DNA of 64,000 bases from Oidiodendron maius Zn (Eukaryota > Ascomycota > Leotiomycetes > Myxotrichaceae): positions 1,190,689 to 1,254,688 of the forward strand of contig KN832882.1 of assembly GCA_000827325.1 (NCBI GenBank). The letters are read 5' to 3'. Every line of letters begins with the position of its first letter. The first letter of the stretch is position 1. The notes below the pieces were generated by a model. The model searched no databases and was not told the origin of the DNA. It was given only the letters and a program-made list of their open reading frames with translations. Position numbers and translations under genes: made by a program. This document shows, piece by piece, positions 16,565-32,287 of this stretch.

Positions 16565-19201
16565 CTACGAGTCAAAAGGTTCCTTAATTGCCGGGATTGG
16601 CCACTCCGGAGCTATATATGGGATCTCAAAGTGGAAACTTCCGCTTCCAACAGAGTTCACCGTCTCCTGCCCTGGCAACTTGATCAATGCAGACGTGTTC
16701 GGTGGAACCACCGCATCCATGATAAACTTGCCATCCTCAATCCTCCATGAGTTTTCAACCCTCCCATGAGGACTATCAAAAACAGCTTTTGCGGATGTGA
16801 TCGTCCCTCCAGGTACAGGCATGAAGGAAATTTCCCTCCATCCTGGTTTGGCCGGGCATATCCCAGCAACTGTTGCATGCAGCCAAGCTCCTACGCTCCC
16901 GAGTGCATAGTGATTGAAGCTTGTCATGCTCCCTGGGTTGATGCTTCCATCAGGCAGCATACTATCCCAACGTTCCCACATCGTCGTTGCTCCCATGGTT
17001 ATTGGATATAGCCAGCTTGGACATTCCTCACATAACAGCATTTGGTACGCGAGTTGCGCCAGGCCAGACTGAGAGAGCGCGGGGCAGATTAGAGGTGTGC
17101 CAGCGAAGCCGGTGCCAATTTTGAAGTTCGAGGTTCGGACCAAAACACCCAGACGCTTGGCTGCCGCAGCAGTTTCCTCAGGTGTTCTGAAGAGAGAGAA
17201 GGCAATAGCAAGAGAGATGGATGTCATTGTATCTGGGGCAAGGCGACCGGAGGGTGTGATATATTGCCGTTGAAATTCTTCCTGCAACTTTCTAGCTTCG
17301 GAAGCGAAATGGCATGCATCATCTTGATGATCAAGAATTTCCGATGTCCGGGCGATAACCTTCGTGATCTGGACTAGATATGCATTGGCCACAAGGTGTG
17401 GATCGGTCTTCCCATCCGCTGGGTGGGAAGGAGGAGCATATGGGTCGAGCCAATCCCCCAATTGGTATGTATCAGAAGACCATAAACCATTTGATCCTCG
17501 AGGAATGCCTTTTTCAATCCATGCCTTCATGCTTCGATACTGATCCTGCAAGATCTTTCGATCCCCATAGGTCAGGTACAAATCGTTCGGGGTGATGACA
17601 GCCACGTCTCCCCACGCTGCTTGAGCTCTGGGAAATTCCTCGCCGATGATGTTCGGGCAAACTAAAGGCACTACATTATCACAGTCATTGATTTGTTCCG
17701 CAGCGACGTCTCGAAGCCATCCAGAAAGCATGCCGCTCGTATTATATAAGAAGCTGGCTGTGGGTGCGAAGATCTGGATGTCACCTGTCCAGCCGAGACG
17801 CTCGTCTCGTTGAGGGCAGTCAGTTGGAATACTGACGAAGTTGCCTTTCATTCCCCATCGTATATTCTCGTGGAGCTGATTTACTTTGACATTCGAACAC
17901 TCGAACCAGCCCGTTCGCTCCATATCAGTGTGGACGACGATAGCTTCAATCGCACTGGACTCTGGTTCGCCGGTTTCCGATGGCCACCCGTCAACTTGAA
18001 CATAACGAAAACCGTGAAACGTAAATTTGGGTTCCCATTCTAGAAGCTCGCCGGAGAGGATTATTGAGTCGGTTGCTTTGCAATTTCGGAGCGGACGTGT
18101 TGCGCATTCTCCATTCTCCAGTACTTCGGTGTGTGTGAAAATAATTTTCTGGGCCTTCGGTCCAGAAACTCGAACTCGAAGCCATCCCACAAGATTCTGT
18201 CCAAAGTCGACAATAACTTTGCCAGTGGGACTCTTGAAAATGTTTCTTGGCGGGAGACTCTGGACTCTCCTAACGGGTGGGGCTGTTGATGCTACTATCT
18301 GGGCTTTTGGGAACGCTGACTCCTCGACGGACGACAACTGTTCATCGACGAGATTCGGTAAGGACCATTCCTTCTTTTGCAAAGTGGCATCATATACTTC
18401 ACCATCATATATTTCTGATGAAATAACTGGTCCGGTGCCAGAGTGCCAAGAGCTATCAGAGTTGATGGTCAAAGTATTCCCGTCTACAAGCAGGATTTCA
18501 AGCTGAGCCAACAGAGCCATCCGGTCTCCATAGATATCTCGCCGACCGCCATTGAAACCTAATCTTGTACAGAACCATCCTTCGCCAACCTCCACGCCGA
18601 TGGCATTCTCACCTTCCACCAGATGCTGTGTGACATCGAAAGTCTGGTAGTTCAGGTGATGGTTGTAGCTGGTCCACCCAGGCGCCAATACATGGTCGCC
18701 AACTCGAGTACCATTGATATGAGCTTCGTAGAGACCCTGCGATGTAATGTACAGGCGACCTTTCTGTACTTTCGCAGTGACCTTGAACGGTTTCCGAAAT
18801 AGCACAGGCTTAAGAGATCCGTTTGGAGCGAACAATTTGGGGGCAGCAATGAACTTTGCTGTCCAGTTCTCATGACTATACAAGCCGGTTTCAACTGTCT
18901 TTGGCTCCGACCAAGCTGTTAATATGCCATCAGGCCCCTTGGCTCTCACTCGGACGCTTGCACTCTCTCGAGGAAGGAGTGGAGATGTTGGCCATGGCAC
19001 TAGCACGGATTCATGGGAGACTGCCTGAAATAACAACGGGTTGACAGGATCAACTGAGGGCCGCACAATCTCGATATCATATGAGGCCTGAGTCCAGTTT
19101 TGGTCTTCACCAGCGAACCTCCATGATATTCTAGGTGCTGGCTCTCCGATACCAAGCGCCTCTCGATGATGCTCGAATGTGACGGGGAGGATCTGGACCA
19201 T
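16565..19201 (-). CDS. GH78 alpha-L-rhamnosidase
   Basis: A single minus-strand exon of 878 residues, starting at the ATG at 19201. It cleaves terminal alpha-L-rhamnose from glycosides or pectin. The order of domains fits GH78: an N-terminal beta-sandwich (LGIGEPAPRISWRF, QASYDIEI), the carbohydrate-binding module with LYITSQGLYEAHINGTRVGD and LAPGWTSYNHHLNYQTFDVT, then the (alpha/alpha)6 barrel with SIPTDCPQRDERLGWTGDIQ, where the acidic DERLGW..D group is catalytic in the family, QLGDWLDPYAPP, and GSMTSFNHYALGSVGAWLH, and a C-terminal sandwich. No signal peptide is visible, so the enzyme may be intracellular and act on imported rhamnosides. A GGCTAA motif, the core of XlnR-type sites, lies at 19374-19379 upstream of the start. 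Confidence 0.93.
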   Translation of the reverse strand: MVQILPVTFEHHREALGIGEPAPRISWRFAGEDQNWTQASYDIEIVRPSVDPVNPLLFQAVSHESVLVPWPTSPLLPRESASVRVRAKGPDGILTAWSEPKTVETGLYSHENWTAKFIAAPKLFAPNGSLKPVLFRKPFKVTAKVQKGRLYITSQGLYEAHINGTRVGDHVLAPGWTSYNHHLNYQTFDVTQHLVEGENAIGVEVGEGWFCTRLGFNGGRRDIYGDRMALLAQLEILLVDGNTLTINSDSSWHSGTGPVISSEIYDGEVYDATLQKKEWSLPNLVDEQLSSVEESAFPKAQIVASTAPPVRRVQSLPPRNIFKSPTGKVIVDFGQNLVGWLRVRVSGPKAQKIIFTHTEVLENGECATRPLRNCKATDSIILSGELLEWEPKFTFHGFRYVQVDGWPSETGEPESSAIEAIVVHTDMERTGWFECSNVKVNQLHENIRWGMKGNFVSIPTDCPQRDERLGWTGDIQIFAPTASFLYNTSGMLSGWLRDVAAEQINDCDNVVPLVCPNIIGEEFPRAQAAWGDVAVITPNDLYLTYGDRKILQDQYRSMKAWIEKGIPRGSNGLWSSDTYQLGDWLDPYAPPSHPADGKTDPHLVANAYLVQITKVIARTSEILDHQDDACHFASEARKLQEEFQRQYITPSGRLAPDTMTSISLAIAFSLFRTPEETAAAAKRLGVLVRTSNFKIGTGFAGTPLICPALSQSGLAQLAYQMLLCEECPSWLYPITMGATTMWERWDSMLPDGSINPGSMTSFNHYALGSVGAWLHATVAGICPAKPGWREISFMPVPGGTITSAKAVFDSPHGRVENSWRIEDGKFIMDAVVPPNTSALIKLPGQETVNSVGSGSFHFEIPYIAPEWPIPAIKEPFDS

Positions 19202-19654
19202 CTTGGCTCTGGAGAGATATCACAAAAGTTATAATTCTAGAAGAGGAATACAGAACATCCTTTTACAAGTGGATATATGGCTGGTTAGACAAAGCGGAGA
19301 GAGACTCGGCTGGTTTTAACCCGAACCACTAGGCTGGATGGTGGCCTGAGTTCTTGTAGCCGAATTATAACGCGGCTAATAAGGACTTCCTTATTAATGC
19401 ATGAGAAGGGCACAGTTTAGATCCGATCTTATCTAAAAGAATGATGAGCCCCTGTCATGGGGTATATTTTGTGTGGAAGACGAGTTGACACAAACTGGCC
19501 GAGAAGTTGCTGAGAGTCTCTCCTGTGCACGTGGAAGCGAAGATCACGTTGCCGAGGTTTCTTGTGCCGGAACTCCATCCTCCTGAGTAGATTGCGTTCA
19601 GATATTAGACTGTCGTGAAACCACATCTCCAGCTCCCCAGATTCCCAGTTCAAG
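19202..19654. promoter_or_regulatory. Divergent promoter of the rhamnosidase and the split-start hydrolase
   Basis: This 453-bp region separates the GH78 start (19201, minus) from the hydrolase start (19655, plus). A GGCTAA motif is present at 19374-19379. No coding signal was found. Confidence 0.35.
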
Positions 19655-21135
19655 ATGTAAGTGGCACGGATATCCATTTTGAAGGCATGAAATTTAGTAT
19701 CTCACGTGAAACCTAGGGCCGGACAACCAACCGTGGCCAAGATCGTGGCCCATCCGACATATCCAGACACCATCTTCCAGCTTACGCCGACCAAAAGCGG
19801 CAAGCTGGCTGTTGCTGCTAAACGTGGCGGGCCATTCAACATTGACTGGGAGGTACATGGCACAGGCGATATCAAGGTCATCGTATGTATCTACTCCCTC
19901 ATTACCTCTTCGTCGCTCAAGAATCCATATGGAAACGATGAGTGCTGTCACGTGATATATACGCGTACTAGAAAGCTCTCGGTGTCTTAAGGGTAACTGT
20001 AGACTCATTCAGAGATGTTATTCGTAGTGTTCTCCACATTGTTTAATTATCATTTAGGATATAGGAGTTTGCAAAAAGGCTGATGGCTGACCAATATACA
20101 GTGGATCATGGGCTTGGGTGCTGTCAAGGCAAGACCCCTTATGACCCTAAAAGTACCTGGATAGCTAAACTTCGAAGACTGCATGGCAAAGACAAACCCT
20201 AAGATTCGGTCATGAAGAGGGAGACAAACATTCTGTTCTCGTCTTCGATAATCGAGGTATATCCTTGGCAACCACCAGATTGCTCTAGCATTATGCTAAT
20301 GCATTCTCCAAGGCATGGGAGACTCTGACACACCATTGTTGCGCTATACAACCAGTGAAATGGCAAAAGATGTCATCGAGTTGGTTGACCATCTAGGCTG
20401 GACAGGCGAGCGCGAACTCCACATTGTAGGAGTCAGCATGGGCGGAATGATATCTCAAGAACTCGTGCGTACCCTCCCCTTTATCCATGGTCAACCGCCC
20501 CATTAAACATCCATACTCAGGGCTACCTAATCCCCAAACGCATCTGCTCCCTCAACCTCCTCTCCACAGCCGCCGCCATCGAGAACACTACCTCGTACTA
20601 CCAGAACCTGCGTACACGCATCAACATGTTCATTCCCAAATCCATGGACCGCTCCGTCACCGACGCTTCGCGCATGATGTTCTCCGATTCCTGGCTCGTT
20701 AGCAAAGACACTTCTCCCGTGCCACAGCCGGGTACTCCAGGTGTCCTGTTCCCGGCAAAGGGCAAGTACGGGATGTTCGAGACCAATTACCAGCGCTTCG
20801 CTGCGCAGGAGATCAACAAGCGGCTCGACCCCAAGCGCTTCGCGAAGAAAGGCTTCATGCTGCAGGCCATCGCGGCAGGGTGGCATCATAAATCTGCAGC
20901 ACAGTTGAAGGAGATCGGGGATAATGTTGGGAGGGAAAGAATATTCGTGTTGCATGGCACGGCAGATAATATGATTTCCGTCCCGCATGGGCGCAAGCTG
21001 ATTGAGATGCTGCAGCCCGGGACTGCGGTTATTAAGGAGGGTGTGGGGCATGTGTTCATGTTAGAGGATACGTATTGGCATAATGATATGATTGCAGAGC
21101 AGATAGAGAAGACGAGGAAGTTAGGGCTGAAGTAG
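19655..21135 (+). CDS. Alpha/beta hydrolase with an intron inside its start codon
   Basis: Proposed exons are 19655-19656, 19717-19882, 20102-20128, 20178-20256, 20313-20464 and 20521-21135, giving 346 residues. The open frame of the first long exon has no ATG, and a stop lies at 19688. A consensus donor (GTAAGT at 19657) and an acceptor (CCTAG, ending 19716) join AT to G and make ATGGCC in good context. The 27-bp exon encodes WIMGLGAVK. Intron 3 begins with GC (20129-20177). The fold shows WEVHGTGDIKVI, VFDNRGMGDSD, the nucleophile VGVSMGGM (Ser133), an Asp in LHGTADNMISVPHG and a His in GVGHVFM. The family is widespread in fungi and uncharacterised. Intron 2 is 219 bp. Confidence 0.8.
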
Positions 21136-21359: not shown

Positions 21360-23153
21360 CTATAGCATCACAACACCAATTCCACTGCATCCTTTCTCGT
21401 CCACTTCGTTCCTATGATTAACACCACCCGCGATAGGATTCGCCTTATAGTTGTACAAGTAGTAGTGTAGCTGACCGTCTCCGGCACCAAACCTCTGCTG
21501 TTCGAGGAACAGTGCGTTGTCCAGGAGGGTTAGGGCATTGAAAACGTCGAATTTAAACTTCTTGGCAAGGATGAGGGCGTCGTTAACCAGGGCATTCAGG
21601 CGCTCCTTCAGCGCAGCGCGGTCGTCAGCCTGCAACGCGACATTGGTTGCGTAGTAGAAGAGGTAGGCTGCGCGGATGGAGGTGTGCTTGGAATTTATGA
21701 CAGAGGATTCGATGAGATAGAAGGAGAAGAAGTCGGTTATTTCTTTTGTCGTTGCGTCCTGACATTGTTAGGAATGGATTTTAATCTTCTGGCTAGCAAG
21801 TGAGGCTTACTTCAACAACATATGTCCAGATGACTTGGTCACTAGGATCAGCCTCTTTAGGTAGTAACCAGTGCACGACTTCCTCTCTCGTGTACATAGG
21901 TGCCATATCGAATTTCTCCAAGTACGACCTAAGCAGGTTGAGAACGCCATCCACATCCTTCGCTTCCATCGGTCGTAGCCCCTTCGTAGATGTATGGTCG
22001 GGAAGTTTGTACTTCATGATCTGGTATTGAGGCTTGCTCCCGCGTGGGAGAGGGCTAAAACCAACGTCGTTGAGCTTCTGCCAATCGATCGATCTATGAT
22101 AATATCTGGTTGTGCTAACAGGTGTCGGCAGTACAATGCCAGCAGTATAGATTGCCTGCCAGACTTCTCGGATGTAGCATCGTCGAGTGATCTCTTTGAT
22201 GAGGACCGGAGTTAGACGCTTCGACCGGAGTTTCTTATGTACGCAGAGAAAGTTGACTTCAGATGCGTGCAGGACCTTCGTACGGACTCGTAGTTCGAAA
22301 GGGACGGCAGAGATGAAGGCTACGAGCTTGCGGGAGGCGCTGGCTCGAACGCCAACATGCCATTCCTTAGTCCATCCTGGAGATTGGAGAGCCCTAGGCC
22401 AGTTAGTTGTGACAATTACACAGTTTTGGACGCATACCATCTAAGAAACGGTTTCGAGTAGTTGAATCTGAACATCGACTCATTGTCCTCAACGTAATGT
22501 CCATACAGTAGATCAAATACCTCTTGAAGCTCCTCGTCGTTGGTGAGATCCATAGTAACCCACTCAAATCCGTCCACAAGTGGTCCTGGATCCTTGGGTA
22601 CATCCTCTAGAGCAATGATCTTGAATGGTCCCTCTTCGATTGCTCCCTTTTCTCCAAAATTCGGAACCGGTTGTGTCTGCCAGAACTTGTACGATCCCAT
22701 GTCTTTGACATTCTTCCCCTTCGCTGCCAACCCAGTCATGATATCCTCGAGGCTCAACTTTTTCAGCGCATCTGTTGCCTGTTGCGTGGTAATGTCTCCA
22801 TCAACGACGCCGAGCTGTTGGGCCAGCGCGGGGTTCATCTTCAGCAACTCGGAAACTTGCGCATGGCTGAGACCACCAACAGCCTTGGATATCTCGTCCT
22901 TTGAAGGACCTGCTGAAGACTCGCCTTTCTCCAAATGTAGGAGATTTTTTATCCGCTTCTTCTTCGATTTCTTCTTCTTGGACGTCGCGCTGCTCGAAGC
23001 CGTCGCGCCGTCTGCGGGGACCTCATCGCCGTCCTCTTCTTCACTTTCAGGCTCCGCTTGGGGGTCGGATGAAGCAGCTTTAGACTCGGCGATGGCCTCT
23101 GCTGCAACCTTCTGCACTCTAGCAGGATCATCAATCTTGGATTCGTCAGCCAT
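21360..23153 (-). CDS. nmt1: Glycylpeptide N-myristoyltransferase
   Basis: Three minus-strand exons, 23153-22438, 22393-21811 and 21758-21360, with introns of 44 and 52 bp, give 565 residues. The start at 23153 ([20 protein letters not shown]) is the first ATG that gives the usual acidic N-terminus. A Lys-rich patch (KKKKSKKKR) near residue 60 is typical for ribosome association. The catalytic core shows [52 protein letters not shown] formed across intron 1, [40 protein letters not shown], and [11 protein letters not shown] with a C-terminal VVML. It transfers myristate from myristoyl-CoA to N-terminal Gly. The N-terminal region is somewhat extended and Ala/Ser/Glu-rich. Confidence 0.96.
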
Positions 23154-23496
23154 TGTTGCTGTCGAAGACTTGCAAGAGATGTGGCATGAACTTTTGGCGG
23201 GGTTGTCGGTGTTTCGGTGGGATCCCAAGACAACGGTTAAAGTAGGTCACGTGAACAAACTCTTCAATAACTTCAGAAAAGTGGTACCAATTTTTGGCAA
23301 TAAATACTTTATCTTTGGAATGTACCAAAGACGTTAATTACTCAGGAGATCGATTCTATATAATGTGAAGCGTGCTCTAATATTAGAGGTTGGAAGAGTT
23401 GCAACATGCGTTTGCTGATATAGGAATTTGCGGCTATTTATCGCGATACTTGGGGTATTCTGGCCCTAATAATGCCTAGGCTATATAATGCACAAA
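23154..23496. other. Intergenic region between two minus-strand genes
   Basis: It contains the 3' flank of the ABHD12-like gene and the NMT promoter. An RGTCACGTGA-type E-box (GGTCACGTGAAC, 23244-23255) sits about 90 bp upstream of the NMT start, a plausible basic helix-loop-helix site. Confidence 0.35.
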
Positions 23497-30814: not shown

Positions 30815-32287
30815 ATGCCATTCTCTACTGCAGCCGCAAAACTTGAAGTCGGTTCAATCAGCGACACAATCAAGCGTAGGTAAACCTTGCTATTTTGCGC
30901 AGTGCTATTTTCATGTGAATCTTGAATAACTCTTTAATTTAAATGCATAGAACAAGCAGATGCAATTGTCAATGCCACAGTCCCATTGATCACACCGTTA
31001 TTGAATTTCCTCGTACTTACGAGAGATGGCGATGTTCTCTACCAAGCTACTGCTGGCACGAGGCAATTAGGATCCCTAGAACCTCTGAGATTCAATGATG
31101 TAAGTTTTGGCCCCTCGCCATCATGACATGCATAGTTTTCAATGCCGTTTTTATCCTCACTTGGTCAAATGGGCTGATTTCCTCTTTAGATATTCTGGCT
31201 TGCCTCGCATACTAAAATTCTGGGGGTGATGTCGATGTTGAAGTGCATCGATATGGGACTTATTAGTATCAATGATAGTGTCTTAACTCACTTGCCTGAC
31301 CTGGCCCAGGAGCAAGTGTAAGTCATACACTTTCATGTAGCTTAAGAGTCTTTTATAATAGAGCATAGTCGAACGGACCCTAACGATCCGAATTCGCCTA
31401 CACGACCGCGAGTAGGCGATATCACTGTCCGAAACCTCCTTACACTTACCAGCGGAACTGCATATCCAGTCGTTGACTTCCTTGCTACACTAAACCCGAC
31501 AGAGATCGTTTTAGATCCAAAGCCATTCTTTCCTAGCAATGCAAGTGTCTACCAGGGCTCCCACGCTGCTGACCCAAATCTAATCTGGCGCTACGGGGCC
31601 GAAGTCGACTGGCTCGGTTTACTTGTTGAGAAGATTAGCGGGATAAGCCTTGGAAACTTTATCCAGACTCATATTTTGACTCCAGCTGGTGTCCCTCCGA
31701 GTGATTTTACATTCACTCTCGATGCGGAGCAGACCGCAAGATGCGTCGGTCAACATGTAAGGGTAAATGATACATTGGTGGTGCCAAGACCTCCAATCTA
31801 CAACCATGCAAACATCCAATTCGAAAGTGCTGGAGCTGGAGGCTTCGGCACTATCAATGCTCTTGGGCAGGCGCTGTTACCGATTATCAACGGTGGAAGA
31901 CACCCGAAAACTGGAAAGCAAATTCTTAGCCCCTCAATCGTCAAGAAAATGCTTCAGCCTCAGTTATCTGAGATTGAACTCAACAATGGCCTGAACCAAC
32001 CATCTCAAGCATCTAAGGATGGTGGAGTTTTGTTCCCCGGTGTCCCTAAGCAGTGGGGCCTCGGTGCCTTGCTCTTCCCAGAGGGATTCGCTCACACTGG
32101 TCGCGGAGATGGAACGTTAGCATGGGCTGGTTTCACGAATGTCAACTGGCACTGTGATAATGAGAAGGGTGTCGTGATATTGGCCTGGAGCCAGCTGATT
32201 CCTCAAGACGATCCTGTCTTCAATAACAATACTCGCTATCCTATTGAGAAGATCGTCTACGATGCAATCGGAAACAACTACTTTTAA
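30815..32287 (+). CDS. Beta-lactamase-like serine hydrolase (EstB/LovD superfamily)
   Basis: Four exons, 30815-30875, 30951-31099, 31190-31317 and 31369-32287, with introns of 75, 90 and 51 bp, give 418 residues. Serine beta-lactamase/transpeptidase fold landmarks are in order: FWLASHTKILG with the SxxK nucleophile (Ser76, Lys79), the second motif Tyr in IWRYGAEVDW (Tyr188), and HTGRGDG (His355) in place of KTG. The first donor is taken as GTAGGT at 30876 because it alone keeps frame with the QADAIVNATVPLITPLLNFL helix. No signal peptide is seen. Fungal members are esterases or acyltransferases, some in polyketide pathways, and the substrate here is unknown. It lies in tandem with the next hydrolase, 305 bp apart. 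Confidence 0.88.

Follow-up and report, generated by a model that had tools for sequence, protein, structure and literature searches.

A spliceosomal intron very probably interrupts the start codon of an alpha/beta-hydrolase gene in Oidiodendron maius

The hydrolase locus

The window analysed here is the whole 64-kb stretch of the Oidiodendron maius Zn genome (45.9 Mb in 58 contigs) to which all positions refer. The gene of interest lies on its plus strand, and the full model has six exons and encodes 346 residues. Pfam places the product among the alpha/beta hydrolases (PF00561, 54.3 bits with a cut-off of 25.8; PF12697, 51.5 bits with a cut-off of 26.3), and exon 5 contains GVSMGGM, which we take to be a nucleophile-elbow-like motif. 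The nearest named relative is from Mollisia scopiformis (Leotiomycetes), with 72% identity. An alpha-L-rhamnosidase-like gene (16568-19201, minus strand, five rhamnosidase-type Pfam domains) is divergent from the hydrolase gene, and the two have a common 5' intergenic region of about 450 bases. On the other side an N-myristoyltransferase gene (21796-22440, minus strand, Pfam NMT and NMT_C) is convergent with it; the ORFs at 21360-21767 and 22416-23246 are probably part of that gene. The features of the hydrolase gene are as follows.

19655..19656, plus strand: coding part of exon 1, the AT of the very probable split start codon (sequence, first-exon model scoring)
19655..19660, plus strand: ATG-TAA start-stop, in unspliced RNA only (translation of the unspliced sequence, ...QFKM*VARI...)
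19657..19716, plus strand: intron 1, very probable, 60 nt, phase 2 within codon 1 (GTAAGT donor, TAG acceptor, branch-like CTCAC, Arg for Met in relatives)
19717..19882, plus strand: exon 2, the G of the start codon and residues 2-56 (gene model, homologues, P0001)
19883..20101, plus strand: intron 2, 219 nt, GTATGT...CAG (gene model; absent from P0001)
20102..20128, plus strand: exon 3 (gene model, P0001)
20129..20177, plus strand: intron 3, 49 nt, GC-AG type with a GCAAGA donor (gene model; P0001 lacks it exactly as modelled)
20178..20256, plus strand: exon 4 (gene model, P0001)
20257..20312, plus strand: intron 4, 56 nt (gene model, P0001)
20313..20464, plus strand: exon 5, containing GVSMGGM (gene model, P0001)
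20465..20520, plus strand: intron 5, 56 nt (gene model, P0001)
20521..21135, plus strand: exon 6 with the stop codon (gene model, P0001)

P0001, a protein of 340 residues, is the only near-identical spliced sequence found, and its source tag, lgn, presumably stands for assembled sequencing reads. It is identical to the model from residue 8 onward and continuous over introns 2-5, reproducing all four exactly. When it was used as the query against solved structures, distant relatives alone were returned, with esterases the best. Its first Met stands for a genomic GTG at codon 7. Since it begins there, P0001 neither shows the splicing of intron 1 nor excludes its retention, and it was rejected as proof of that splicing. 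A paralogue search in the same genome gave four matches at the hydrolase gene itself and, at other loci, two weak ones with E about 6e-4, so it offers no paralogue for comparison.

A start codon very probably assembled from two exons

Where does translation of the hydrolase begin? The open frame of exon 2 is closed on its upstream side by a TGA at 19688-19690 and has no ATG before exon 2, so that a conserved N-terminus stands without any contiguous in-frame ATG. On the plus strand, 19655-19662 reads ATGTAAGT, and GGCCGGACAACC lies directly 3' of the TAG ending at 19716; the intron borders are CAAGAT/GTAAGT...ACCTAG/GGCCGG, and a branch-like CTCAC is found 12 nt from the acceptor end. When 19657-19716 is excised, AT meets G and the sequence becomes ATG GCC GGA CAA CCA. 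The positions of donor and acceptor thus put the exon junction within the mature ATG, as in a start codon disrupted by a spliceosomal intron. On these points the sequence agrees with the initial annotation, which had described the frame without an ATG and its upstream stop, the GTAAGT donor and TAG acceptor that yield ATGGCC, and the ATG followed by TAA in unspliced RNA. We are confident that a 60-nt spliceosomal intron interrupts the start codon (AT/G, phase 2) of this gene. Its removal in vivo we infer from the sequence together with the homologous N-termini described below. Splicing would join AU to G into an initiator AUG, flanked by A at -3 and G at +4, and the product would be a 346-residue protein starting MAGQPTVAKIVAHP.

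The motif ATGTAAGT occurs 2 times in the 64-kb window while 1.59 occurrences are expected by chance, and so on its own it proves nothing. The other occurrence, at 31098-31189, resembles a donor as well, that of an unremarkable internal intron with its TTTAG end at 31189. The probability of a chance ATGTAAGT within the roughly 76 possible donor positions for the acceptor at 19716 is about 0.0009, and ATGT has a single occurrence in 19204-19716, from the neighbouring gene to the acceptor. First-exon models were also enumerated. They could use GT donors or any of four GC donors, an acceptor within 19660-19745 and an intron of 41-450 nt, and were scored with untrained splice consensus weights. The split start has the top score, 12.1, among 20 distinct models (21 rows, one duplicated).

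N-termini of homologues

The initial annotation held that the split start gives a sensible N-terminus, and two kinds of homologue, mature and unspliced, back this at the protein level. In the mature ones, MAGQPTVAKIVAHP is matched with Met at the same place by MEGRPSVQQVLDHP (P0003), MEARPTVAEVLAHP (P0012) and MDTRPKAKDILENP (P0014). A homologue search lists 120 matches, 81 of them NCBI-sourced. Among the matches listed, a Met 4-13 residues before the codon-7 anchor starts 56 of these 81; the remaining ones are longer or otherwise placed (20), short (4) or without the anchor (1).

The second kind is made up of ORFs translated without splicing. Note that AG/G, when unspliced, must give Arg, so Arg would be read in place of Met. 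A further search, whose query was exon 2 plus the first residues of intron 2, matched ten short ORFs, which run into intron 2 and are thus unspliced there. Five of them reach codon 1 and, read by hand, all five have Arg at Met1 (LRAGQP, LRAGRP, TRTSNP, SRAARP and TRDKPP, against MAGQP in the model); the other five begin at codon 7. The clearest single case comes from the pair P0208 and P0065, the latter from Nemania serpens (Xylariales, Sordariomycetes). The unspliced ORF P0208 agrees with the annotated protein P0065 at all 48 of the 48 anchored exon-2 residues, and in the PTANNFPS before them, but has Arg where P0065 has Met1. The comparison of the intron position in close homologues, which the initial annotation had called for, thus finds Arg for Met in 5 of 5 hand-read close relatives and in P0208, at the protein level.

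A profile search gave 186 matches, of which 120 are listed. Five of these 120 are NCBI-sourced and were left out, and another four lacked the anchor; each other ORF that was long enough was paired automatically with the best-scoring mature N-terminus among 57, at a score threshold of 17. Among the matches listed, 46 ORFs reached this score, and in 38 the place of Met1 is not the first letter of the ORF. Arg stands there in 19 of the 38, compared with 12 of the 185 residues that occupy positions -6 to -1 (Fisher P about 1e-9, a value that ignores kinship and, as the sequences are related, is only a guide). The remaining 19 of the 38, again among the matches listed, are not Arg. Automated pairing misplaces two of the five hand-read Arg ORFs, giving Pro for P0124 and Met for P0125, and for P0132 it lands on an internal Met. 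Several other pairings, such as P0152 and P0154, look mis-registered, whereas P0166, P0171, P0172 and P0181 appear to carry genuine extensions rich in lysine. For 8 further ORFs (P0125, P0144, P0150, P0182, P0196, P0202, P0209 and P0221) the place of Met1 is the ORF's own first Met, and in P0144, P0150, P0182, P0209 and P0221 the start codon looks contiguous. More distant ORFs, for example P0201 and P0212-P0214, start M-A-P-[LM]-T.

The relatives were compared as protein only, and their Arg codon would by this reasoning be AGG, that is AG/G across the acceptor. None of the 19 residues before Arg is K, E, Q, M or W, which points weakly to a YAG acceptor (P about 0.07). A scan of viral contigs for the relatives' DNA found no relative.

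Traces of the split are also seen in annotated proteins. Arg occupies the place of Met1 in P0021 (Lachnellula, Leotiomycetes), P0061, P0082 and P0203 (Xylaria), which seem to misread the start; P0021, P0061 and P0082 belong to the 20 longer or otherwise placed proteins. P0139 (Blumeria, labelled partial) lacks exactly the Met of P0015. In P0005, P0011, P0016, P0018 and P0019, likewise from those 20, the Met is at its place behind an upstream extension, which would be expected if the predictor could not place a split start. The place of Met1 is Leu in P0054 and P0115, both Xylariaceae, and Ile in P0007. P0007 and P0020 are annotated as fusions with an upstream GNAT acetyltransferase, possibly gene-model artefacts of the split start codon. 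A split start would help explain the 20 longer or otherwise placed and the 4 short proteins among the 81 NCBI-sourced relatives listed, and it is for gene annotation that the case matters in practice.

How old is the interruption? At the protein level the same interruption is found in relatives, and it appears to be common to Leotiomycetes and Xylariales. Judged from these proteins it is widespread and not universal, given the contiguous-looking Met ORFs, the extensions and the Leu and Ile cases. The intron looks old, with carriers among the Leotiomycetes and among some Sordariomycetes at least, and other lineages apparently lacking it. The split start may also have been gained independently in Xylariales. 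The hydrolase gene is a well-supported case of a start codon that exists only after splicing, with an interruption seemingly common to two fungal classes.

The start-stop in unspliced RNA

The initial annotation went on to regard splicing as an on/off switch for the enzyme. In unspliced RNA a ribosome would meet AUG and at once UAA, the next ORF, of 9 codons, would begin at 19687, and no in-frame AUG would follow before codon 59. The retained form, with its AUG-UAA and the TGA at 19688, is unable to encode the full protein, and since AUG is followed by a stop, retention of intron 1 would be non-productive here. Is this a sign of regulation? The switch is not supported. AT followed by GTAAGT gives AUG-UAA, and AT followed by GTGAGT gives AUG-UGA. 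Any such consensus donor placed after AT brings the start-stop with it as an automatic by-product. Passages of a study of Yarrowia lipolytica likewise note that GTGAGT and GTAAGT donors in phase 2 create an in-frame stop whatever the intron length (PMC2911113, Genome Biol. 2010). Many early introns, if retained, leave a copy without the full protein, and one with an in-frame stop would have the same consequence.

A regulated switch, in which the cell would silence the enzyme by retaining intron 1 and halting ribosomes at the AUG-UAA, possibly with stalling or nonsense-mediated decay, is unlikely. In its favour, AUG-UAA is present in the unspliced RNA, the split position seems conserved, and the codon-7 start of P0001 would be consistent with a transcript that kept intron 1. 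According to excerpts of PMC11915504, AUGUAA in the 5' UTR of Arabidopsis NIP5;1 stalls ribosomes and mediates boron-dependent mRNA decay. NIP5;1 shares the same six bases with the hydrolase, but there they lie in the 5' UTR and here they occur in unspliced RNA only. Against regulation, the start-stop is automatic for any AT/GTRAGT, the donor hexamer of intron 1 is the consensus and not a weakened form, and 197 of 200 shuffled sequences fold better than the RNA around intron 1 (z = +1.72), so there is no sign of a structured element. We hold similarly doubtful the idea that the split start goes back to the common ancestor of Leotiomycetes and Sordariomycetes and has persisted because it serves as a putative gate, with only spliced mRNA having a usable AUG. 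If gating were true, retained transcripts would be shut off at codon 1, splicing efficiency would set the enzyme level, and any AT/GTRAGT start intron would be such a fail-safe. Are start-codon introns kept by chance, or as a translation gate? The hydrolase gene provides a clean system for this question.

Other ways to begin the protein

The start codon might instead lie on another upstream exon, for example one with the ATG at 19457 that is joined to the acceptor at 19716 from a donor at 19471 or 19462. Such models can be drawn on paper, with scores of 10.3 and 9.8 against 12.1 for the split start, and when upstream-ATG exons were enumerated all scored lower. Their donors are weaker (GTGTGG, GTATAT), their introns measure 246 or 255 nt, and Met would fall upstream of its place in homologues with the same N-terminal length, so we consider them very improbable. 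Translation without splicing of intron 1, from a non-AUG codon or an internal Met such as the GTG at codon 7, is the least credible choice: P0001 and five unspliced ORFs (P0123, P0127-P0130) are called from codon 7, but these calls look like the choices of a prokaryote-style ORF caller, annotated homologues have further upstream residues ending in Met, and downstream of exon 1 the earliest in-frame AUG is at codon 59.

Comparison with known start-codon introns

Initiation codons split by introns are of a kind already known, and the hydrolase gene adds a new and apparently old case. The initial annotation called them rare. Passages of PMC1626468 (BMC Genomics 2006) agree, in that introns disrupting the start codon occur and are relatively rare; excerpts of PMC2911113 report 47 Yarrowia lipolytica genes whose first coding exon is one base long, the A, so the arrangement is not exceptional. 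As these excerpts describe them, the Yarrowia genes and the hydrolase gene alike have an intron inside the initiation codon of a nuclear gene, but the split is A/TG (phase 1) in the former and AT/G (phase 2) in the latter. Yarrowia belongs to Saccharomycotina, a different subphylum from that of the fungus studied here, and, unlike the Yarrowia case as far as those excerpts describe it, the hydrolase family seems to keep its split across two classes. The 'start codon introns' of PMC1626468 resemble intron 1 in being first introns at the start codon; in the passages at hand their peak class follows immediately on ATG (phase 0, position 2), while the hydrolase intron lies inside it. Among the literature matches listed for intron-split start codons, PMC1626468 alone was judged direct; PMC2911113 came from a search on intron retention, and further reports may exist. 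The phrase 'split start codon' also appears in an excerpt of a preprint on ribozyme design (PMC12363958).

One last observation concerns the names of homologues. Six of them among the matches listed (P0009, P0031, P0075, P0098, P0175 and P0194) are called glycylpeptide N-tetradecanoyltransferase, and a Pfam scan of P0098 found no NMT domain in it. This suggests that the neighbourhood is conserved and that the names were mis-transferred.
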